From contig JAFNZQ010000216.1 in assembly GCA_017382775.1 (NCBI GenBank), positions 1 to 11,380 of the forward strand: 11,380 nucleotides of DNA, written 5' to 3'. Shown here in pieces: positions 2,140-11,352 of the stretch (the stretch's first letter is position 1; the number at the start of each line of letters is the position of its first letter). The notes below the pieces were generated by a model, which ran no database searches, was not told the DNA's origin, and worked only from the letters and a program-made list of their open reading frames with translations. Source of the stretch: Spirochaetaceae bacterium. Lineage in GTDB: Bacteria > Spirochaetota > Spirochaetia > Treponematales > Treponemataceae. The position numbers and the translations under genes were made by a program.

Positions 2140-2945
2140 GGGAGAAGGTCCTTAATTTTGATTATTTCCAGTAATTCCGGATTTTCCTTTACGGCATTTG
2201 CCCAACGCAAATAGCGTTCCATTGCGTAAAAATCAGCCGATGAGACATCCCCAGCCACCGATAAATCTGCGGAAAGTTGCTCTTCCATTTTTGCCAAATA
2301 ATCGTTGTAGGCGGATTTAGCCACATTGTACAGGGGAATGTTGGGAACCTTGTCAACGGAAACGGAAAATTCCGTAACAGTAATCCGGGGATAATTGGTT
2401 TCAAAATCGAAAATGGCCTTTCCCTCTTCCAAATTGAGAGTAAAATCCGTGGATGTAACTTCCTCGGAAGACCGGAATTTATTTTCAAAATGGGAAATTA
2501 TTTCGGTTTTCAAAAGTTCAGCCTGGTTTTTCAGAAAATTTGTTAAATCCTCTTGAGTTTCCACAGACTTTTTTGCAACCAAATCGCTCATATGAGCCAA
2601 ATTTACCTGCACCGTGGCCTTATATTTTACGGAATAGGAAAAATCACCCTCGGAAAGCAACTTTTTGTAGGTATCCGCCATGGGAAGATCTTGGGAAATA
2701 ACACCTTCCACAGATGTGGGGACGTTTTCGAAAATAAAAAGTCGGGAATTATCGGGGATTAAACATTGCCATCGCCATGCAAATTGTCCGTTTTCGATAA
2801 CGTCTTTTTCGATTCCGTTGGTTTGGGAAGAAAAAACACCGAATTTTCCAACGGGAATCCTATGTTGAACCCATCCGTAGTAAAAAACTGCGGCGGCTCC
2901 GGCCAGGAGAAATAAAAAAAACAAAAATCCCAAGAATTTTTTCAT
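2136..2945 (-). CDS. Membrane-anchored extracytoplasmic protein of unknown function
   Basis: Not recognised with confidence. Seen: 269 residues starting with two lysines and a hydrophobic helix at about 4-23, without a lipobox cysteine, so probably an uncleaved N-terminal anchor with the rest outside the cytoplasm. The segment just after the helix (residues 30-62, with VGKFGVFSSQTNGI and later ENGQFAWRW) recalls the start of SPFH/band-7 proteins, and the mixed beta then charged-helical layout (about 110-230) would fit a degenerate band-7 fold; this is inference. It sits between the HExxH lipoprotein and the CCA gene, overlapping the CCA start by 4 bases. It is the one operon gene not overlapping its upstream neighbour: a 52-base gap carries a strong promoter ending 6 bases before the ATG, and no good Shine-Dalgarno is visible. 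Translation is probably leaderless from that promoter. Confidence 0.8.
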   Translation of the reverse strand: MKKFLGFLFFLFLLAGAAAVFYYGWVQHRIPVGKFGVFSSQTNGIEKDVIENGQFAWRWQCLIPDNSRLFIFENVPTSVEGVISQDLPMADTYKKLLSEGDFSYSVKYKATVQVNLAHMSDLVAKKSVETQEDLTNFLKNQAELLKTEIISHFENKFRSSEEVTSTDFTLNLEEGKAIFDFETNYPRITVTEFSVSVDKVPNIPLYNVAKSAYNDYLAKMEEQLSADLSVAGDVSSADFYAMERYLRWANAVKENPELLEIIKIKDLLP

Positions 2946-2951
2946 AAGGAT

Positions 2952-2980
2952 ATTCTACCATGTTTTTTTTATTTTGTCAA
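2952..2980 (-). promoter_or_regulatory. Internal sigma-70 promoter, predicted leaderless
   Basis: On the minus strand a perfect -35 TTGACA (2975-2980) is followed by exactly 17 bases and a -10 TAGAAT (2952-2957, 5 of 6). Six bases, ATCCTT, separate the -10 from the ATG at 2943-2945, so the expected +1 is the A of the start codon. It would let the membrane protein and the CCA enzyme be made independently of the upstream lipoprotein genes. Confidence 0.75.
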
Positions 2981-2997
2981 CCTGATTTTCCCGTTGC

Positions 2998-4590
2998 CTA
3001 CAAGTTTCTCACATTTATTAGATGCATCCGTCCGGCCTCAAAACCGTATTTCCCTTTCAGAAATGCGGACAGATTTTTTGAAGCAGTTACAAATTTTTCC
3101 GCTTTGTTGGCAATAATAACTTTTGCTGCTTCAGATGTGTTCATAAAATAAATTTGGGCCAGGTTTTTGGAAAAATATTCACTTAAATCACCGGTGGGTT
3201 GTTGGAGAACGTAGGCCATGAACTCGTTTTTAATAAGATACTCATCGGTGGCATCGTATTGTAAATTGGGGTTTCTCGAAAAGTAGTCCAGCAAAAACTG
3301 CCTTTCCGTCTGTCCCACATTGTAAAATTCCCGTTCAACTGCCTCTTGAAATTCCACATCGGTAAAATAAATTCCGTGGAGAAGTTCGTGTACCAAAAGC
3401 TTCATTCGCAACCGATTTGAAGTTTGCCGACTTATGGAAACCACCGATCCATTTCCCGGAAGAAAGCCGCCGTTGGGATTTTCCACAATGATTCCGTTCC
3501 GTTTTAAAATTTCCAAAAGGACCTTTTCGCCGTTGGAAATTTCCATTTTGCGAGTTTCAATTATGGTGAAAAATTCCGCCAAGGTTTCGTTGCGATAGTC
3601 ATGGGCGTTAAATCCGTGCAAATTGGAAATTTCCTCAAAGGTGGGAATAGTGCCGCGATATCCGGCCTTTTCCGCAAAAAACGCGAGACGTTTCAAAAAT
3701 TCGTCCTGCACCGAATGATTCATAAAGTCGAAAATCAAAATTTGCGGCAACTGAGGCCATGAAAAAAGTTCGAAAGTGGTTTGTCGCCATTGATCCTGTT
3801 GCCACGAAACAATCAGCCCCGGATCCGCGGGGATGGGAACCAACGTGCTTTCGATTTCCGCCTTTTCAAAAACAATTCCGCGGATTCCCCGGCTTTGAGC
3901 AGTGAAAATTCCGTTTTGGGCGGTGAAATTTCCCATTTGTCGGGTGTCCAATGGAATTTCGCCGGAAAATCCTTCGGTTTGAACTGTAAAAATGGATTTA
4001 GCCCCTTGGATTTTTACAAATTCCGGAGGATTTTCCTCCAAGAGAATTTTTATTCTTCCGGGAATTCCCACCATTGGGGAAAAATCCCCTTGGACAGTTT
4101 CCGCGGAAAAATTTCCACCATGGGCGGGAAAACCAAAATGGACTTCAGTGGAAGAAATTTCCGTTCCCAAAAACGCTTCGTCCACAGACGCGCGGATTAG
4201 TTGCAGCGGAGACGAAGAGTAGACGTAAAAACCAAAGGCGGCCACATCGGGAAAGGCAATGGAAATCCGAACTGTTGCCTCACGGTTTTTGGGGTGAACG
4301 ATGGCGAAAAAGGGATTTTTTTCGTTGCTGTCATGGAGAAATCCCAAAACCACCGGAGAACTTTCTTCCATAAAGGAAAAATCCACATGGAGACTCCGAC
4401 CTGTGGCTGTTATCGGTTCCTCAAAAAGAAAACGTATTTCTTCTCCGGCAGGGATTTTCCCCTCTTTCCCTGCATTTTCCAATGGAAAAATCTTTCCGGA
4501 CTCTCCGTTAATCAAAAATGGGACCGCACTCTGTTTTTGGCAAGAAATTAGGCAAATCAATAGAAAAAATACGAACAAAATTTTTTTCAT
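2998..4590 (-). CDS. Lipoprotein with zincin (HExxH) metallopeptidase motif
   Basis: Predicted exported lipoprotein of 530 residues. Seen: a lysine-rich N-terminus, a hydrophobic core and a lipobox LISC with C17 as the lipidation site. Residues about 20-260 are rich in beta strand and glycine, without a domain I can name. The C-terminal half holds HELLHGIYF at 401-409, an HExxH zinc site with a downstream NEFMAY glutamate at E456, the spacing expected of a gluzincin-type third ligand. The predicted role is therefore a cell-envelope metallopeptidase; substrate unknown. The start ATG overlaps the OGG stop (ATGA) and has AAGGA at 4598-4602, 7 bases upstream, so translation is probably coupled to the glycosylase. 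After its stop there is no terminator-like hairpin before the next gene. Lipidation is fairly sure; peptidase activity is inferred from the motif only. Confidence 0.85.
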   Translation of the reverse strand: MKKILFVFFLLICLISCQKQSAVPFLINGESGKIFPLENAGKEGKIPAGEEIRFLFEEPITATGRSLHVDFSFMEESSPVVLGFLHDSNEKNPFFAIVHPKNREATVRISIAFPDVAAFGFYVYSSSPLQLIRASVDEAFLGTEISSTEVHFGFPAHGGNFSAETVQGDFSPMVGIPGRIKILLEENPPEFVKIQGAKSIFTVQTEGFSGEIPLDTRQMGNFTAQNGIFTAQSRGIRGIVFEKAEIESTLVPIPADPGLIVSWQQDQWRQTTFELFSWPQLPQILIFDFMNHSVQDEFLKRLAFFAEKAGYRGTIPTFEEISNLHGFNAHDYRNETLAEFFTIIETRKMEISNGEKVLLEILKRNGIIVENPNGGFLPGNGSVVSISRQTSNRLRMKLLVHELLHGIYFTDVEFQEAVEREFYNVGQTERQFLLDYFSRNPNLQYDATDEYLIKNEFMAYVLQQPTGDLSEYFSKNLAQIYFMNTSEAAKVIIANKAEKFVTASKNLSAFLKGKYGFEAGRMHLINVRNL

Positions 4591-5411
4591 GATTCATTCC
4601 TTATATAATGAAAAAGATATTGTTGGGCAATTCCTGCCACGTCATTAAACATGTGAGGAAATCCATGGGGATAAAACCGCTCCATAATTCGTTTAACCCA
4701 CACATCCACGGGAAAGGCATCGGTACGATGGAGACCGTAAAGCAAAATACATTGGGCAACTTTGGGGCCGACGCCTTTCAGTTCACATAATTTTTTTTCG
4801 GCCTCTTTCAAAGGAAGGGAGGCAATTTCGTCAAAATCAATTTTGCCGTCGCATAATGCCCGAGCGGTGGAGATTAAATATTCCCCACGATAACCGCACC
4901 GCAATTCTCGACAAAGTTCTTCTTCATTTCGGGATGCGATTTGTTCCGGAGTGGGGAACGCAAACAGGTTCTCTCCCAAGGGCGTTCCGCATAATGAAGA
5001 AAGTTTTTCCACGATTTTTTTTATTCGGGGAATGTTATTGTTTTGGGATATTATAAAACTAAATGTCGCTTCCGCGGAATTTTGCCGTAAAATACGGATT
5101 CCGGAAAATTTTTTTATAGCCATTTTTAGCGTGGAATCCCCGGAAAGACGGTTCAATATTTCCGAATAGTCGGTTCCAAAATCGAAGTAATGAAACCAAA
5201 AATCATTAAACTCGTCTAAATCAATGCCGTGGAAAAGAAAACCGCCTGCAATTTCTTGAAGAAGAAGTTTCTTGTTGGAGGCGACTCCGAAAAATAGTCC
5301 GTCATCCCGTAAAGTCCAGCGAAAAGCCTGACCGCAATCAAGGGTTTCCGCCGGATTGAAATTACCTATGTCTGAAACAAAAATTCCGCCATCACGTTGA
5401 GAAACAATCAC
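4587..5411 (-). CDS. ogg: 8-oxoguanine DNA glycosylase/AP lyase (OGG1 family)
   Basis: Base-excision repair enzyme that removes 8-oxoguanine from DNA and cuts the strand by beta elimination. Seen in 274 residues: an N-terminal beta domain with LDCGQAFRW (24-32), like the eukaryotic OGG1 SGQ-FRW segment; SQNNNIPRI (122-130), matching the OGG1 NNN lesion-strand contact; the helix-hairpin-helix LKGVGPKVAQC (211-221) with catalytic lysine K217; and PVDVW (234-238) with catalytic aspartate D236. Presence of the lysine indicates a bifunctional glycosylase/lyase rather than a monofunctional AlkA. The length fits bacterial OGG1 proteins of the Clostridium type. The start is GTG, overlapping the lipoprotein stop as GTGA, with a weak GGTGGG at 5419-5424. 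The stop overlaps the next lipoprotein start as ATGA. Translational coupling on both sides is likely. Confidence 0.93.
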   Translation of the reverse strand: MIVSQRDGGIFVSDIGNFNPAETLDCGQAFRWTLRDDGLFFGVASNKKLLLQEIAGGFLFHGIDLDEFNDFWFHYFDFGTDYSEILNRLSGDSTLKMAIKKFSGIRILRQNSAEATFSFIISQNNNIPRIKKIVEKLSSLCGTPLGENLFAFPTPEQIASRNEEELCRELRCGYRGEYLISTARALCDGKIDFDEIASLPLKEAEKKLCELKGVGPKVAQCILLYGLHRTDAFPVDVWVKRIMERFYPHGFPHMFNDVAGIAQQYLFHYIRNES

Positions 5412-7402
5412 AGCTTAACCCACCAGGGGAAAAGCATGTATGAGCTTGCCGGAGGCACCTGTTCATATGTTCCGTCATCCTTCTCGTTGATGACACCGCC
5501 CTGGTCCCATTTACGCACCGACCGCAGGGCTTTGTCGTAATACATTGTTCCGTCTTCCATCACGTAGCCTTTGAATTCATACCCGCTTCGTGTGGGTGCC
5601 TCAATGGGGTTACCGCCGGTATCGCAAATTTGCGGCATATCTTCACCGTAACTTACACGAACCGAGTAAACGTCATCCAGGCCGGAAGCCTCATCGGCAT
5701 TTATGTTGTTAATCTGCAAAGTGGCCATATAGGGTTCCCATTCCGCAGTAAGAACGGCAGTTTTCGAGTTGGAGTACCACGTGTTGCTGCTTCCCATATT
5801 TTGGTTGCAGTACGGAGTTTTAACAACCCCCTCCGCTGATGTGGAAGTGAAGAAATATCCTTCGAAAATATATCCTTCTCGAAGGGGACGATCACTTTTT
5901 TTGAATGTTATAGGCTCACCGTATGTGGCCACCACCGATGTGGTGGGAGATTTTCCCCCATTGAGATCCAAAGCAATGTCCGTTTTAGCCCATTTATATG
6001 TACAGTTGAGATAGATATCGTGTTCGGGCATAATAAAGGAGGTGTATCCATTGGCCATATCCGCATAGGTACGAGAGGGATCAGTTGCGGTCTTAGTCCA
6101 ATTAAGCCTATATGTTTCTTCCTCCGGAGCATATTGCTGGGTGGAATTTGGCAAAAGGGACACGTAAACCCTCTCTCCCGCGGTGACATTGGTTATGACC
6201 GGATTGGTACGATTGGGGTGAGAGGTATTTGCCGCATCGGCCATAGATGTATCTATAAAAACTCTTTGGTTCGGCAAGGAAATTGTACCGGGATTGCTTA
6301 TCACCGGTGTATCATCGTCCATGACCACCCCTTCCTTGTTAGAGCCTCGGATGGTTCCCCAACGTACGGAATATGTGTCCAGTCCGGTAATACGGGAGGC
6401 ATAAACGCTCCATGAAGATGTTTCGTCCGGATTTATTGCAACCTTATAAGCGTTAATCTGATCATTGGGGACGCGAATCACAAAATTTGATCCGCAGCCG
6501 CTAAAAACGTCCACAGCAAGTTGGGGCGGAACTGCGGCATGACATCTGACGGTTGCCAAACTGGCAAGACCATAGAAGGCACTTTTTCCGATTGTGGTAA
6601 CGGTGGAAGGAATGTACAACTCGTTAATACTGGTTCGCCTCTCACTGGGAGATTCGCTGTTGGTACCAAGGAGATTATCCCCCAGGGCAACTGTGGCAAC
6701 CCCGTTGATACAATCGGGAATATAAAGTTTTGAAAGATTTCCGATTGCCCCCAACCTAACGCTTTTAATTTCGCCACTACCCGGACTGTCCGGGAACAAT
6801 CCCTCCGGATAAGAATAGGCTGTGATTGAAAAAAGTTCGTGGTCGGTTCCGGAAAGTCTGGCCGTTATTTTGGCTTCGCCGGTACCGTTTGCAAGATCAA
6901 TCAAGTTGCCGGTGTTTTTGTCAACACTGATGCTGGTGGGTTTATCGGAATACCATTCCAACTGGGATGAGGAAAGAACGACACCACTTTGCAGAATATT
7001 GGCCGATAAGGGCATTGACCCAACAAAGTGAACTGAACTTCCGTTTTTCACAACCTTTCCACCCGGCTTTTTGACTTCCAGGGTGGTGACGCTGGAACTT
7101 TCGATAAATTTACAGAAAATGGTAATATCCGAATCCGGCATATGGAAACGGGTTCCGTGGATTCCGTATCGAGTTCCGCCGGAAGTGTAGTAGCACAACG
7201 AATCGGTTTCAAATTGTTGTCCGGGATCCGGGGTTATTTCGATTTCCACCATATGGCCAACGCGGAACTGGTTAGCCGGAACATATATTTTACCACCCAC
7301 AACAGATTTGTCAACAGAAACTTTATAATAGTCCGTATAGGTAGTTTCACACGAGAATAAAAGAAGAGTTAAGATTGTAATACAAAAAAATGCTCTTTTC
7401 AT
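5408..7402 (-). CDS. Large modular surface lipoprotein (Ig-like, BspA-like and Listeria-Bacteroides-like repeats)
   Basis: Predicted lipoprotein of 664 residues. Start choice: an in-frame GTG at 7412-7414 exists, but the ATG at 7400-7402 follows GGAGG by 5 bases and gives a clean signal peptide (MKRAFFC...) ending in lipobox LLFSC, C18. Modules in order: an InlB-like beta module at about 27-100 ending in the FHMPDSDI motif; a Big_2-like Ig domain at about 105-195; a single BspA-type leucine-rich unit at about 258-290 (INELYIPSTVTTIGKSAF); a second beta module at about 345-470 ending in FIMPEHDI; and two Listeria-Bacteroides-like repeats at about 473-556 and 560-625, with YIFEGYF and YEFKGYV. 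Such proteins usually sit on the cell surface or in the periplasm and bind host or polymer ligands; here that is inference. First gene of the operon, coupled to OGG by a GTGA overlap. No enzymatic motif seen. Confidence 0.88.
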   Translation of the reverse strand: MKRAFFCITILTLLLFSCETTYTDYYKVSVDKSVVGGKIYVPANQFRVGHMVEIEITPDPGQQFETDSLCYYTSGGTRYGIHGTRFHMPDSDITIFCKFIESSSVTTLEVKKPGGKVVKNGSSVHFVGSMPLSANILQSGVVLSSSQLEWYSDKPTSISVDKNTGNLIDLANGTGEAKITARLSGTDHELFSITAYSYPEGLFPDSPGSGEIKSVRLGAIGNLSKLYIPDCINGVATVALGDNLLGTNSESPSERRTSINELYIPSTVTTIGKSAFYGLASLATVRCHAAVPPQLAVDVFSGCGSNFVIRVPNDQINAYKVAINPDETSSWSVYASRITGLDTYSVRWGTIRGSNKEGVVMDDDTPVISNPGTISLPNQRVFIDTSMADAANTSHPNRTNPVITNVTAGERVYVSLLPNSTQQYAPEEETYRLNWTKTATDPSRTYADMANGYTSFIMPEHDIYLNCTYKWAKTDIALDLNGGKSPTTSVVATYGEPITFKKSDRPLREGYIFEGYFFTSTSAEGVVKTPYCNQNMGSSNTWYSNSKTAVLTAEWEPYMATLQINNINADEASGLDDVYSVRVSYGEDMPQICDTGGNPIEAPTRSGYEFKGYVMEDGTMYYDKALRSVRKWDQGGVINEKDDGTYEQVPPASSYMLFPWWVKL

Positions 7403-7407
7403 ATCAT

Positions 7408-7412
7408 CCTCC
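7408..7412 (-). promoter_or_regulatory. Shine-Dalgarno GGAGG deciding the lipoprotein start
   Basis: A minus-strand GGAGG, 5 bases upstream of the ATG at 7400-7402, selects that ATG over the GTG at 7412-7414. It lies at or next to the predicted transcript 5' end, so the leader would be only about 10 bases long. Confidence 0.8.
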
Positions 7413-7418
7413 ACTTAC

Positions 7419-7447
7419 ATTGTAACATATAAAAGGGAAAAAGTCAA
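7419..7447 (-). promoter_or_regulatory. Sigma-70 promoter of the five-gene operon
   Basis: Minus-strand -35 TTGACT (7442-7447, 5 of 6), spacer of exactly 17 bases, -10 TACAAT (7419-7424, 5 of 6). The expected +1 is near 7412. It precedes the GGAGG and ATG of the modular lipoprotein and should drive all five minus-strand genes down to 748. Confidence 0.75.
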
Positions 7448-7505
7448 GTCTTTTTAAAAAAAACGGCATTTTTTATAAAAAAATTCAGCTTTTTTTTTAA
7501 TATTT
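7448..7505 (-). promoter_or_regulatory. A/T tracts upstream of the operon promoter (possible UP element or curved DNA)
   Basis: Three nearly pure A/T blocks, 7451-7463, 7469-7485 and 7490-7505, are centred about 20 bases apart, close to two helical turns. The nearest covers roughly -39 to -51 relative to the predicted +1, where an UP element would be bound by the RNA polymerase alpha C-terminal domain. This is inference from composition and phasing. Confidence 0.4.
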
Positions 7506-7549
7506 GGTGAAAAATTTTCTGTGTTTTAACTTTTGTCATCGGTCTTCGA

Positions 7550-7571
7550 TTTCCAAAATGTTTCCAAAATG
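7550..7571. repeat. 11-base tandem duplication
   Basis: TTTCCAAAATG occurs twice head to tail (7550-7560 and 7561-7571). Short and possibly trivial. The rest of 7506-7598 shows nothing I can name. Confidence 0.6.
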
Positions 7572-7610
7572 TTAGGGAAATTCGGTGATGGAACACATCG
7601 GCGAAAAATG

Positions 7611-7635
7611 AACTATTAGAAAAATTCGAATAGTT
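7611..7635. repeat. Hairpin in repeat copy 1
   Basis: Arms AACTATTAGAA (7611-7621) and TTCGAATAGTT (7625-7635) flank a 3-base loop. Ten of eleven positions pair; the A at 7618 is mismatched. No T run follows on either strand, so it is not a standard intrinsic terminator. Confidence 0.8.
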
Positions 7636-7682
7636 GGGGTGAGAATGGCGACAACGCAACCGTCATTCCGTGGAAGAATTTT

Positions 7683-7717
7683 CCGCCATCGATTTGGTTG
7701 GGTTCACCTTGTGGCGG
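7683..7717. repeat. Stem bridging repeat copies 1 and 2
   Basis: CCGCCA (7683-7688) pairs with TGGCGG (7712-7717), which crosses the junction between copies 1 and 2. The flanks TTTT and AAAA could extend the stem past a two-base bulge. The same arrangement recurs at 7799-7833 across the junction of copies 2 and 3. Confidence 0.55.
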
Positions 7718-7726
7718 CGAAAAATG

Positions 7727-7751
7727 AACTATTAGAAAAATTCGAATAGTT
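7727..7751. repeat. Hairpin in repeat copy 2
   Basis: Identical to the copy 1 hairpin: arms 7727-7737 and 7741-7751 with the same single mismatch and AAA loop. Confidence 0.8.
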
Positions 7752-7798
7752 GGGGCGAGAATGACGACAACGCAACCGTCGTTCCGTGGAAGAATTTT

Positions 7799-7833
7799 CC
7801 GCCATCGATTTGGTTGGGTTCACCTTGTGGCGG
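7799..7833. repeat. Stem bridging repeat copies 2 and 3
   Basis: The same CCGCCA (7799-7804) and TGGCGG (7828-7833) pair as at the first junction, with an identical 23-base intervening sequence. Confidence 0.55.
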
Positions 7834-7841
7834 CGAAACCG

Positions 7842-7866
7842 AACTATTCGAAAAATTCGAATAGTT
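7842..7866. repeat. Hairpin in partial repeat copy 3 (perfect palindrome)
   Basis: Arms AACTATTCGAA (7842-7852) and TTCGAATAGTT (7856-7866) pair at all 11 positions around an AAA loop. The base mismatched in copies 1 and 2 is restored here to a C-G pair. It is 115 rather than 116 bases from the copy 2 hairpin because of the one-base deletion. Confidence 0.85.
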
Positions 7867-7901
7867 GGGGTGTGGTGAGAAAAAAATGTGGCGATTACGG
7901 C

Positions 7902-7950
7902 AAAAAAAACGACAGCGGTATAATCTCCCCTAAAAACTATACAGCAGTCG
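7902..7950 (-). terminator. Intrinsic terminator of the nucleoside kinase gene
   Basis: Read on the minus strand, the arms CGACTGCTGTATA (7938-7950) and TATACCGCTGTCG (7910-7922) pair at 11 of 13 positions around a 15-base loop. They are followed by eight T residues (7902-7909). It starts 15 bases after the kinase stop codon, as expected of a rho-independent terminator. Confidence 0.8.
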
Positions 7951-7964
7951 CCTTAATGAGAATA

Positions 7965-9626
7965 TCAATATTTGAATGAACTTCCGCCGATAAACTCTCG
8001 CAACAGTGATTGTTTTGGAACCATTGTGTCGGGGATGGGCAAAAAGTTGTCCAAGAACGCCAAAAGGTGGGACGCCTGGGTGTATGCGCTATCCGTGGGC
8101 GGAACGCACCGCAACAAGGGCTCGGCATAAACTTTCAGAACGGAAAGTTCGTAATCCAAGGCGGTGTTTATCATCACGTCGGCATTGTTTTGGAACGGGA
8201 ATATGTGCAAGACTTCGCCTTTCTGAACGCTGGGCCACATCCCGATACTTTGGGACGCCGTTTTGCCACGATGCCATGAGTCCCGTACAATTCGACGAAT
8301 AAGTCGATTGTCCCGGGTGGACACACGGGTATGATCGTCCAAATTAAGCTGCGTCAATGCGGAAACGTAAATTTTGAACTTCTCGTCGCTGCCTATTAAG
8401 TGGGTAAGTTTGTCGTTAAGTCCGTGAATCCCTTCCATAATCAAAATGTCATTCTTGTTCAGATGCATTTTTTTCTGGCCGTCGTAGTAGTATTTCCCTA
8501 GAGAAAAGTCATAGGACGGAATTTCCACCTCTTTGCCGTTGAATAAATCAATCAGGTCCTTGTTGAGCTGTTCCACTCGAAGGGCTTCCAAACATTCGTA
8601 ATCGTAATTTCCGTTTTCGTCCTTGGGTGTGTCGGCCCGTCCGATGTAGTAGTCGTCCAAGCTTATTACCTTAGGTGTAAAACCTCGAACCCGTAACTGC
8701 ATAGCGATTTTTTTTGACGATGTTGTTTTTCCGGAACTGGACGGTCCCGCAATGAGAACGAGTTTAACATTCTTCTGCGAATAAATCATTTCAGCAGCGT
8801 CGGAAAAGCATTTATTCTGCAATGTTTCGCAAATGTCCATGAAGTCCGTGAAATTCCCGGTGCAAACCAACTCGTTTAAATCTGCGACAGATGTTACATC
8901 CAGTTTTTTGCCCCAATTTTTGTATCGTTCGTAAACCAAAAACAGTTGTTTGTGCTCGGAAATCGGTTTCAAGGTTTTCGGAGTGCGTGAAGGCGGGAAA
9001 CGGAGCAAAAATCCGGAACCGAATTTTTTCAGTTCGAAAACGTGCAAAAGTCCTGTGGAAGGCAAAAGTGGCGTTGTGTACAGGTCGGAAAATTCATCGA
9101 TTTTGTTTATTCGATAGTTGGGAGCGGCCACAAAGTTCAACTGCTTTCGGGTTTTAATCAAATTGAGTTTATCAAACAACTCAATGGCTTCCTCGTATGG
9201 AATTCGAGCCTGGCGAATGACTTCGTTGCTGTCAATGATTTTCTGCATTTGCTTCCAAAGCAAATCCAAATCCTCATCGCTGATTGAATCCTCGTCATCG
9301 AAGGTGTAATAATAGCCGTGGCCCAAACTATGCCCCACCAAAAGGCGTTTTTCGGGAAAAAGCATGTGGGATGCAGCCGCCAATACAAAGCACAAAGTCG
9401 ACCGATAAACCGATGCACCTTCCGATGAAGATGCAAAAACCGGCTCCAATCGGGCACTGTGACGTATCGGCTCCCGTAGAGAGCATAATCGATTGTTCAA
9501 AAGAACCGCATAAATGTCCTCGGCTTCCACATTATAGCTTTTTGCCAAGTCATCCAAAATTTCAAAGGGAGTAGAACCATAGGAGACTGATTTTTTTTCA
9601 TTTCCAAATGTTAAAAAAATTTCCAT
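7965..9626 (-). CDS. TGS/SAD-domain nucleoside (uridine) kinase
   Basis: Probable cytoplasmic nucleoside kinase of the uridine-kinase family, phosphorylating a nucleoside with ATP or GTP in salvage. Seen in 553 residues: a TGS domain at about 1-65; a domain at about 70-215 resembling the second additional (editing) domain of threonyl-tRNA synthetase, with VGHSLGHGYYYTFD at 97-110; and a P-loop kinase from about 286, with Walker A GPSSSGKTT (294-302), SLDDYY (322-327, the family's DSFY-like nucleoside-binding loop), MEGIHGL (397-403) and a lid with STRDNRLIRRIVRD (436-449). The four zinc/catalytic positions of the ThrRS editing site appear to be S76, F80, Y183 and L187, so the editing centre should be inactive. 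This domain fusion is known in spirochaetes, Thermotogae and others; the true substrate is uncertain. The start ATG lies 6 bases from a consensus -10, so the mRNA is probably leaderless. A terminator follows. Confidence 0.9.
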   Translation of the reverse strand: MEIFLTFGNEKKSVSYGSTPFEILDDLAKSYNVEAEDIYAVLLNNRLCSLREPIRHSARLEPVFASSSEGASVYRSTLCFVLAAASHMLFPEKRLLVGHSLGHGYYYTFDDEDSISDEDLDLLWKQMQKIIDSNEVIRQARIPYEEAIELFDKLNLIKTRKQLNFVAAPNYRINKIDEFSDLYTTPLLPSTGLLHVFELKKFGSGFLLRFPPSRTPKTLKPISEHKQLFLVYERYKNWGKKLDVTSVADLNELVCTGNFTDFMDICETLQNKCFSDAAEMIYSQKNVKLVLIAGPSSSGKTTSSKKIAMQLRVRGFTPKVISLDDYYIGRADTPKDENGNYDYECLEALRVEQLNKDLIDLFNGKEVEIPSYDFSLGKYYYDGQKKMHLNKNDILIMEGIHGLNDKLTHLIGSDEKFKIYVSALTQLNLDDHTRVSTRDNRLIRRIVRDSWHRGKTASQSIGMWPSVQKGEVLHIFPFQNNADVMINTALDYELSVLKVYAEPLLRCVPPTDSAYTQASHLLAFLDNFLPIPDTMVPKQSLLREFIGGSSFKY

Positions 9627-9632
9627 AGTAAG

Positions 9633-9661
9633 ATTATAACCGATAAAGTGTCAGTTGTCAA
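9633..9661 (-). promoter_or_regulatory. Consensus sigma-70 promoter of the kinase gene, predicted leaderless
   Basis: Minus-strand TTGACA (9656-9661), 17-base spacer, TATAAT (9633-9638): both boxes match consensus fully. Six bases, CTTACT, separate the -10 from the ATG at 9624-9626, so +1 should be the A of the ATG. A T/A-rich stretch lies just upstream of the -35. Confidence 0.85.
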
Positions 9662-9709
9662 GAAAAAAATTACTTCCTCGGATTTTATTTGCGGATGGAT
9701 AGTCCCCTG

Positions 9710-9738
9710 TTGACAAAAAAAAGTTTTTCTGATACAAT
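9710..9738 (+). promoter_or_regulatory. Sigma-70 promoter of the LysRS gene, predicted leaderless
   Basis: TTGACA (9710-9715), 17-base spacer, TACAAT (9733-9738, 5 of 6). Six bases, ATTTGT, separate the -10 from the ATG at 9745-9747, placing +1 at the A of the ATG. It is divergent from the kinase promoter, with 48 bases between the two -35 boxes; I see no operator in that gap. Confidence 0.85.
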
Positions 9739-9744
9739 ATTTGT

Positions 9745-11352
9745 ATGAGTGAAAAAAAATCTTTGCACTGGGCTGATATAACAGCCGAAAAAATTGTTAG
9801 AGAAAAAGGCGATTTGCCTTCCTATACCTGTGCTTCCGGAATTACACCTTCCGGAACTGTTCATATCGGAAACTTCCGAGAGATTATTTCCGTGGAATTG
9901 GTCGTTCGAGCCCTGCGTCAGTTGGGAAAAAATGTTCGTTTCATCTATTCCTGGGATGATTATGACGTTTTCCGAAAGGTTCCGAAAAACATGCCCAAGG
10001 CCGATGTCTTGGAACAACATCTTCGGTTCCCCATAACCTTGGTTCCCGATCCTTTCGACCGGGACGAATCCTACGCCCGCCATCACGAAGTTGATGTGGA
10101 AAATATTTTGCCCCGAGTTGGTATCTTTCCCGAATACCTTTACCAGGCGGAACGATATCAAAAATCACTTTACGCCGAAGGAATGCGAACAGCCTTGCAG
10201 AACAAGGAAAAAATTCGGGAAATTTTGGACAGCGTTCGGGATGAAAATCACAAAATCGTGGGTGAATACTGGCCCATTTCCGCCTTTTGCGCAAAATGCA
10301 ATCGCGATACAACGGAAATTCTCGGTTACGACGGCGAATACGGAGTGGAATATCGTTGTACCGAATGCGGCCACCAAACCAAGGTTGATTTACGAGAATG
10401 CAGCGAAATCAAGTTGGGTTGGCGTGTGGATTGGCCCATGCGTTGGGCTTACGAAAAAAACGTTTTCGAGCCTGCCGGAAAGGATCACCACAGTCAAGGC
10501 GGAAGTTTCGACACGGCGCGACGTGTTTGTGAAGAAGTATACGATTGGAAGTCGCCGGTTACTTTTCAATACGATTTCATCGGACAAAAGGGCTTGCCCG
10601 GAAAAATGGCCTCTTCGTCAGGGTACGTTCTCACTTTAGGCGACGTTTTGGCGGTTTATCAAAGTGAGGTAACACGCTATTTGTTTGCCGGAACGCGCCC
10701 CAACACGGAATTTGTAATCAGTTTTGATTTGGACGTTATTAAAATTTACGAAGATTACGATAAAACCGAACGAATTGCCTTCGGTGTGGATAAGGCCAAA
10801 AATGATGACGTTCTTGCCAAGGAACGCCGGATTTATCAGCTTTCCCAGGTGGATGAAGCCGAAGCGGCCGCCTTGGAATTCGGTCCCGAGAAAATGCCCT
10901 ATCAAATTCCGTTCCGACATTTGTGCAATTTGCTCCAAATAAATTCCGGCGATGTGGACGCAGTGGTTCGTACTCAGTCGGAAATAAAAGATTGGCAAAT
11001 CCCCCGATTTAAAGAACGCTGTCTTTGTGCATGGAACTGGATTCGGGAATTTGCTCCGGAAGAATTCCGTTTTTCCTTGCTTGATTGCAAAAAATTCGAC
11101 TTTGCGGAAAACGAAAAGAATGCTTTAACGGAATTGCGAGACTCGGTTTTGCCGAAATTGGATGAAACGGACGAAAAAGCCATTTCGTCAATGTTGTACG
11201 ATATTGCCGAAAAGAATGCTCTTGAGCCAAAGGCCTTTTTCCTTTGCGTTTACCGCGCATTGATTGGAAAGGATCAAGGTCCGCGATTGGCCAATTTTCT
11301 TAAAATAATCGGTTCAGAAAGGCTTTCGAAAATTTTGGATTTATCGCTGTAA
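9745..11352 (+). CDS. lysK: Class I lysyl-tRNA synthetase
   Basis: Charges tRNA-Lys with lysine in the cytoplasm. This is the archaeal-type class I enzyme found in spirochaetes, alphaproteobacteria and a few other bacteria, unrelated to the usual class II LysS. Seen in 535 residues: HWADITAEKI at 8-17; the class I signature HIGN at 40-43 after GITPSG; SWDDYDVFRKVP at 69-80; a zinc-ribbon-like set of cysteines C182, C185, C205 and C208; GKDHHSQGGS at 245-254; and the KMSKS-equivalent KMASSSG at 287-293. The remaining 240 residues form the helical anticodon-binding part. The length fits the family, and conserved residues start within 8 residues of the ATG, so no later start is possible. There is no Shine-Dalgarno and translation is probably leaderless. 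The gene is complete; only 28 bases follow its stop, with no terminator visible. Confidence 0.96.
   Translation: MSEKKSLHWADITAEKIVREKGDLPSYTCASGITPSGTVHIGNFREIISVELVVRALRQLGKNVRFIYSWDDYDVFRKVPKNMPKADVLEQHLRFPITLVPDPFDRDESYARHHEVDVENILPRVGIFPEYLYQAERYQKSLYAEGMRTALQNKEKIREILDSVRDENHKIVGEYWPISAFCAKCNRDTTEILGYDGEYGVEYRCTECGHQTKVDLRECSEIKLGWRVDWPMRWAYEKNVFEPAGKDHHSQGGSFDTARRVCEEVYDWKSPVTFQYDFIGQKGLPGKMASSSGYVLTLGDVLAVYQSEVTRYLFAGTRPNTEFVISFDLDVIKIYEDYDKTERIAFGVDKAKNDDVLAKERRIYQLSQVDEAEAAALEFGPEKMPYQIPFRHLCNLLQINSGDVDAVVRTQSEIKDWQIPRFKERCLCAWNWIREFAPEEFRFSLLDCKKFDFAENEKNALTELRDSVLPKLDETDEKAISSMLYDIAEKNALEPKAFFLCVYRALIGKDQGPRLANFLKIIGSERLSKILDLSL

Follow-up and report, generated by a model that had tools for sequence, protein, structure and literature searches.

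The window analysed here, an 11,380-nucleotide (nt) stretch of contig JAFNZQ010000216.1 from a Spirochaetaceae bacterium, carries three genes whose ATG codons lie directly behind strong promoter-like sequences, and it is the initiation of transcription and translation at these genes that concerns us. One of them, on the forward strand at 9745–11352, encodes a class I lysyl-tRNA synthetase (LysRS) of 535 amino acids (aa) that matches Pfam PF01921 from residue 8 with an E value of 1.6e-124. On the reverse strand, at 7965–9626, lies the gene of a uridine-kinase-like protein of 553 aa (hereafter the kinase), with a Pfam PRK match above cut-off at residues 292–488 and NCBIfam udk and threonine--tRNA ligase matches that fall under the cut-offs; it is matched at E <1e-100 in 55 of 59 genomes, its own included. 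The third gene, at 2136–2945 on the reverse strand, encodes a 269-aa protein with a hydrophobic N-terminus, for which neither Pfam nor NCBIfam gave a match at the thresholds applied; it may resemble SPFH/Band-7 proteins. This protein is matched in 23 of 36 genomes, its own included, and its relatives in 22 of the 35 other genomes are distant (23–35% identity). The window lies in a genome (G000) of 1.44 Mb in 308 contigs, 81.5% complete. The top LysRS match (67%) comes from a Spirochaetaceae genome from deer rectum. All of the remaining 79 among the top 80 matches are likewise spirochaete records; Treponema is the name on many of them, and the titles of many point to animal guts. The source organism is probably a gut spirochaete of the Treponema lineage.

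The LysRS gene is preceded by the predicted promoter TTGACA-N17-TACAAT (9710–9738, forward strand; TTGACA 9710–9715, TACAAT 9733–9738) and by the 6-nt discriminator ATTTGT (9739–9744), which leads straight to the ATG at 9745. On the reverse strand, TTGACA-N17-TATAAT (9633–9661; TTGACA 9661–9656, TATAAT 9638–9633) and CTTACT (9627–9632) stand ahead of the kinase ATG at 9626, and TTGACA-N17-TAGAAT (2952–2980; TTGACA 2980–2975, TAGAAT 2957–2952) and ATCCTT (2946–2951) ahead of the ATG of the 269-aa gene at 2945. The letters and spacings of the three sites, as listed in an earlier note on this DNA, are exact: 11, 12 and 11 of the 12 sigma-70 consensus letters are present for LysRS, the kinase and the 269-aa gene, respectively, the spacer is 17 in each, and a -10-like TANNNT box ends 6 nt ahead of each ATG. 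That the discriminators do not resemble a Shine-Dalgarno (SD) sequence also holds, since none of the words GGAG, GAGG, AGGA, AAGG and GGTG occurs within 25 nt upstream of the three ATGs. Each ATG is the earliest possible start past an in-frame stop, which lies 5, 9 and 4 codons upstream for LysRS, the kinase and the 269-aa gene. The LysRS and kinase genes point away from each other across the 118 bp that separate their ATGs, and both promoters lie in this interval. The 269-aa gene begins 52 nt past the end of a gene in the same direction. The window also offers a contrast: at 7402–7447 on the reverse strand, a predicted TTGACT-N17-TACAAT promoter ends its -10 box 16 nt ahead of the ATG at 7402, and GGAGG stands between the two, as in an SD-led short leader. 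By the measure of a GGAG, GAGG or AGGA at -18 to -4, this neighbour has an SD and the three genes have none.

Distances from promoter to start codon across the genome

The source genome was searched for the consensus promoter with a spacer of N16–18 followed, at one of three ranges of distance from -10 box to ATG, by a start codon. Matches numbered 90 at N4–8, 21 at N9–13 and 46 at N25–29, and reversed-pattern controls gave 1, 2 and 1; the difference between 90 and 21 has a binomial p of 2e-11. A sample of 60 of the 308 contigs, chosen by number, together with the window (330.7 kb, 38.6% G+C) holds 93 strong promoter-like sites. Downstream of these, counting only ATGs with an open frame of 60 codons or more, there are 3 at 0–4 nt, 17 at 5–8 nt, 2 at 9–14 nt, 9 at 15–18 nt and 35 at 19–40 nt, and in-frame codons other than start codons show no distance peak in this sample. 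The gap at 9–14 nt can be understood because the leaders would be too short for an SD, an intermediate length suiting neither route; taken together, the peak, the gap and the broad range beyond it are what leaderless plus SD-led initiation would be predicted to produce.

A custom script, and no published gene finder, was used to call the genes of the sample, with each start picked by its signal. By this procedure, 223 genes with a 5' end comprise 19 with the leaderless-type geometry, 140 with an SD-like word and 64 with neither; an SD is absent from all 19. The earlier note had called for a genome-wide count against shuffled sequences or SD-led genes. In the sample, under a looser definition, 21 of the 223 genes have the geometry (17 of 216 with the window set aside), against a shuffled mean of 1.16 and a maximum of 5 in 200 shuffles, and the loci of two SD-led control genes described below give 0 of 57. 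SD words are found at none of these 21 genes, compared with 12 of 28 candidate starts with a promoter 15–24 nt away and 31 of 78 with one 25–60 nt away. Two members of the looser set, a GTG at 7414 in the window and a TTG in L136, look false, each having an SD-led ATG downstream, and 19 is for that reason the better count.

The 19 genes, which include the three of the window, have a spacer of 17 in 18 cases and a distance of 6 nt in nine and of 7 nt in five, so that the shared 17/6 geometry, to which the earlier note had drawn attention in the three sites, is nothing special in this genome. The remaining genes encode LexA, Ffh, MalQ, an EAL/GGDEF-type protein, a heavy-metal P-type ATPase, a PTS IIA-like protein, a TPR protein, an OmpA-like protein and several proteins without a family match, some of these family matches lying below curated cut-offs, and no one function stands out among the 19. 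LexA (L085 2791) appears to begin at a leaderless GTG, which stands 6 nt past TAAAAT and from which the family model is matched from residue 1.

Orthologous loci and relatives

Orthologous loci were scored for a TANNNT box that agrees with the consensus in at least 5 of its 6 letters and ends 4–10 nt ahead of an in-frame ATG, and separately for an SD word. For LysRS, the 80 best-matching loci out of 592 candidates were taken (L001–L080); the loci of the kinase and of Ffh are the best 30 from 59 genomes, and those of the 269-aa gene and of two controls, PEPCK and TPI, were drawn from 36 genomes; the source genome's own locus is outside the LysRS set and inside all others. The controls were hand-picked, not random, from 20 SD-led genes, their identities were checked, and 3 of 30 PEPCK loci were dropped because the 5' end was missing. 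The box is present at 63 of the 80 LysRS loci (62 without an SD), where an SD is found at 12, one locus having both and 6 neither, and at 20 of the 30 kinase loci (18 without an SD), where an SD is found at 10, two loci having both and 2 neither. At the SD-led controls, the box occurs at 0 of 27 PEPCK and 0 of 30 TPI loci, with an SD at 25 and 27. LysRS loci at 60–69% G+C (L017, L020, L021, L044) retain the -10 box. At the kinase, the box ends 6 nt from the ATG at 9 loci and 7 nt at 10 of the 30. Several LysRS orthologues have an ATT that abuts the ATG, with the -10 box 9–10 nt away; if transcription begins at the A of this triplet, the mRNA would carry a 3-nt leader.

The geometry was also traced on gene trees. 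The LysRS tree requires 7 label changes over 74 labelled rows (7 of 81 rows were without a clear label) and the kinase tree 3 over 26 (4 of 30 without), and in a shuffle test on the kinase tree none of 500 shuffles is as low for the leaderless group. These few changes indicate that the geometry is inherited with occasional switching, it being understood that orthologous loci are not independent samples and that tree counts cannot separate gain from loss. The geometry is not kept at every leaderless-type gene: Ffh has the box at 3 of 30 loci, with an SD at 23, and this count together with that of the 269-aa gene (5 of 23 loci) rules out that leaderless genes are conserved as such in general. 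To be leaderless or not is, as the upstream regions suggest, an inherited property of individual genes: LysRS and the kinase keep the geometry at most of their loci, and other genes switch.

Beyond these loci, genomes were compared by the ratio of N4–8 to N9–13 matches, raw pattern density having been set aside, as the -35 boxes of the relatives seem to be weaker. Over 58 relatives from the same family and order, matches total 1844 at N4–8, 868 at N9–13 and 848 at N25–29, reversed controls give 250, 281 and 270, and N4–8 exceeds N9–13 in 55 of the 58. A genome of the same order (G039, 3.1 Mb) has the top raw count of the 59 genomes, with 160 matches against 50 at 9–13 nt. Of 120 genomes drawn from across the phylum, 23 contain a match to class I LysRS (E up to 1e-20); 20 distant upstream regions, classed by eye, comprise 10 of leaderless type (distances 7–11; families f4, f6, f8 and f18 among them), 9 SD-led or leadered and 1 unclear, and at least two of the 20 (L288, L290) seem to duplicate loci of the set of 80. 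The LysRS geometry was seen by eye in families f1, f4, f6 and f8 and in one f18 genome outside the class.

Initiation at the three genes and its alternatives

Transcription by sigma-70 RNA polymerase usually begins about 7 nt past the -10 box, and the start at the three genes would therefore fall at or beside the A of the AUG. We consider that leaderless or near-leaderless initiation, operating beside SD initiation, is very probably the best explanation of the three genes. A sigma-70-type RNA polymerase would start transcription on the start codon itself or no more than about 3 nt away from it; the LysRS, kinase and 269-aa mRNAs would then carry no leader able to hold an SD; and the ribosome, by analogy with other bacteria, would take the 5'-terminal start codon directly, without SD pairing. 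The 5' ends are inferred here from sequence and the mode of translation from that analogy. In the sample, such a route would serve roughly 8–9% of genes, the SD being, by the same calls, the commoner signal (140 versus 19 of 223). The suggestion of the earlier note that leaderless initiation is routine in this organism, widened to include nearly leaderless starts, is sustained by the genome-wide excess, the lack of SD words and the inheritance at LysRS and the kinase.

Several observations weigh against this interpretation or narrow its reach. The geometry is missing at 17 of the 80 LysRS and 10 of the 30 kinase loci, and three relatives (G024, G040, G057) are without an excess at N4–8. LysRS looks SD-led or leadered in G015 and G031, of one genus, in the 1.1-Mb G019, in G166, G100 and G089, and in three f7 genomes of 1.0–1.5 Mb, which together make up the 9 classed so by eye. 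The -35 box of the LysRS orthologues mostly has only 3–5 of 6 letters, and their box distances of 6–10 nt peak at 8–10, with a mode of 9. The 269-aa gene has the box at only the 5 of 23 loci already mentioned, with an SD at 11, and read-through from upstream could give it a leader. Because of the co-directed gene 52 nt upstream and because most of its orthologous loci differ, the 269-aa gene is, on the comparisons made here, the weakest of the three cases.

The distances at LysRS bear on how literally the start must be placed. The earlier note had all three mRNAs begin with the A of the AUG; the geometry does put the predicted start at or near the ATG, but the LysRS orthologue mode of 9 nt would correspond to a leader of 1–3 nt. 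That transcription begins 1–3 nt before the AUG, leaving a leader too short for SD pairing, would be a sub-case of the same explanation and is a serious possibility, if not the outcome we expect: the start past a -10 box shifts by a base or two, and the peak at 8–10 nt and the ATT just before several LysRS ATGs fit it well, whereas the distance is 6 nt in 9 and 7 nt in 5 of the 19 genes of the source genome, and the kinase orthologues likewise centre on 6 and 7 nt. For many relatives' LysRS mRNAs, a 1–3-nt leader would be as likely as none. A larger departure would be that the promoters described here are minor and that longer upstream transcripts are translated by leadered initiation independent of an SD, for example with the help of S1. 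Polycistronic read-through is conceivable at the 269-aa gene, 52 nt past its neighbour, but the LysRS and kinase genes diverge from an interval of 118 bp that holds both promoters, and the spacing is retained at most of their loci, which makes this account improbable for the set.

It is more improbable still that the starts are misplaced and that translation begins at a downstream codon behind an ordinary leader. TTG or GTG codons do occur downstream in all three genes, but the first 60 residues of the LysRS, kinase and 269-aa proteins contain no further ATG, and no SD accompanies the candidate starts there. The earlier note argued that the LysRS start cannot lie further downstream, and for any large shift this agrees with a domain match from residue 8 and with orthologue starts at corresponding places in most loci. 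For the kinase, the same conclusion stands on other grounds: the kinase-domain match begins only at residue 292 and not, as supposed, within the first residues, but the first 60 residues offer no alternative ATG, and in most of the 30 orthologous loci the start falls at, or only a few residues from, the corresponding position. As for chance, TA-rich words are frequent in a genome sampled at 38.6% G+C; the reversed-pattern, distance, in-frame non-start-codon and shuffle controls nevertheless lead us to reject AT-richness as the cause, and with the box kept at LysRS loci of 60–69% G+C and absent from the SD-led control loci, the probability left to it is practically negligible.

Zheng et al. 2011 (PMC3160421) describe TA-led genes, with a TANNNT motif some 10–12 bp ahead of the start that is read as the -10 box, a signal significant against shuffles; our box is defined in the same way, and significance against shuffles is found in both studies. 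Their spirochaetes comprise 6 of 18 genomes with predicted leaderless genes, at a mean of 3.9% (1.8–6.9%), compared with 19 of 223, about 8.5%, obtained here by a different method. They find translation (J) genes less often leaderless, while LysRS, a translation gene, is leaderless-type here, and the name Treponema is absent from the main text of that paper. In Leptospira interrogans, of the same phylum, differential RNA sequencing mapped about 440 mRNAs with untranslated regions below 10 nt, half of them below 2 nt, and no common promoter motif except sigma-54 elements (PMC5243855); the short-leader mRNAs are mapped there and predicted from sequence here, and the lack of a common motif contrasts with the near-perfect sigma-70 consensus of our promoters. 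Leaderless mRNAs at high frequency are stated for Borrelia burgdorferi in a paper on ribosome structure, in which pocketing of the anti-SD tail is suggested as a possible aid to them (PMC10618245); LysRS looks leadered in the three small f7 genomes examined here, which would be a contrast only if they are Borrelia. In other phyla, leaderless transcripts, common there beside SD initiation, have been mapped experimentally in mycobacteria (PMC3898074, PMC4633059) and in Deinococcus deserti (as cited in PMC5243855), while those considered here are predicted. The earlier note's impression that such initiation is undescribed for this group accordingly fails at the level of the phylum. A literature search reaching few subscription journals found no report of leaderless initiation in the Treponema lineage, nor of gene-specific leaderless conservation at LysRS; in two Treponema papers with the word leaderless, it belongs to a reference title in one and to bacteriocins in the other. 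Leaderless mRNAs are already known in other spirochaetes, and the gene-specific conservation is the fresh part.

These results suggest that, in a large and mostly uncultured lineage of gut spirochaetes, leaderless initiation is routine beside SD initiation, and that the choice between them is made gene by gene and passed on. Software that looks for an SD when it places starts may put those of such genes in the wrong position. LysRS and the kinase, which combine near-consensus sigma-70 promoters with constant spacing and are stable in their inheritance, offer a clear case in which to ask what keeps a gene leaderless. We advance only tentatively, and with some doubt, that a leaderless or near-leaderless class I LysRS could be an old, selectively kept spirochaete trait that places this enzyme on an SD-independent route; if so, LysRS would perhaps stay translated, or be differently regulated, when ordinary initiation is limited.

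Other features of the window

The next gene after the 269-aa gene is poly(A)-polymerase/tRNA-nucleotidyltransferase-like and overlaps its stop at 2136–2139. Overlaps of 4 nt, in which stop and start are shared, are found between minus-strand neighbours there and at 4587–4590 and 5408–5411, an arrangement that suggests that the run of genes between 7402 and 748 is translationally coupled. The gene at 5408–7402, headed by a short leader containing an SD, encodes a 664-aa protein with weak matches, below Pfam cut-offs, to Listeria-Bacteroides/InlB repeats and BspA-type LRRs. At 7599–7872 lies a 116-bp direct repeat, with two copies 97% identical and a partial third copy, each copy containing a palindrome like GAACTATTCGAAAAATTCGAATAGTT. 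The source genome has 58 full or partial matches to it, itself included, which often stand several in a row, about 60–120 nt apart; as judged from these matches, the repeat is a dispersed palindromic repeat family.

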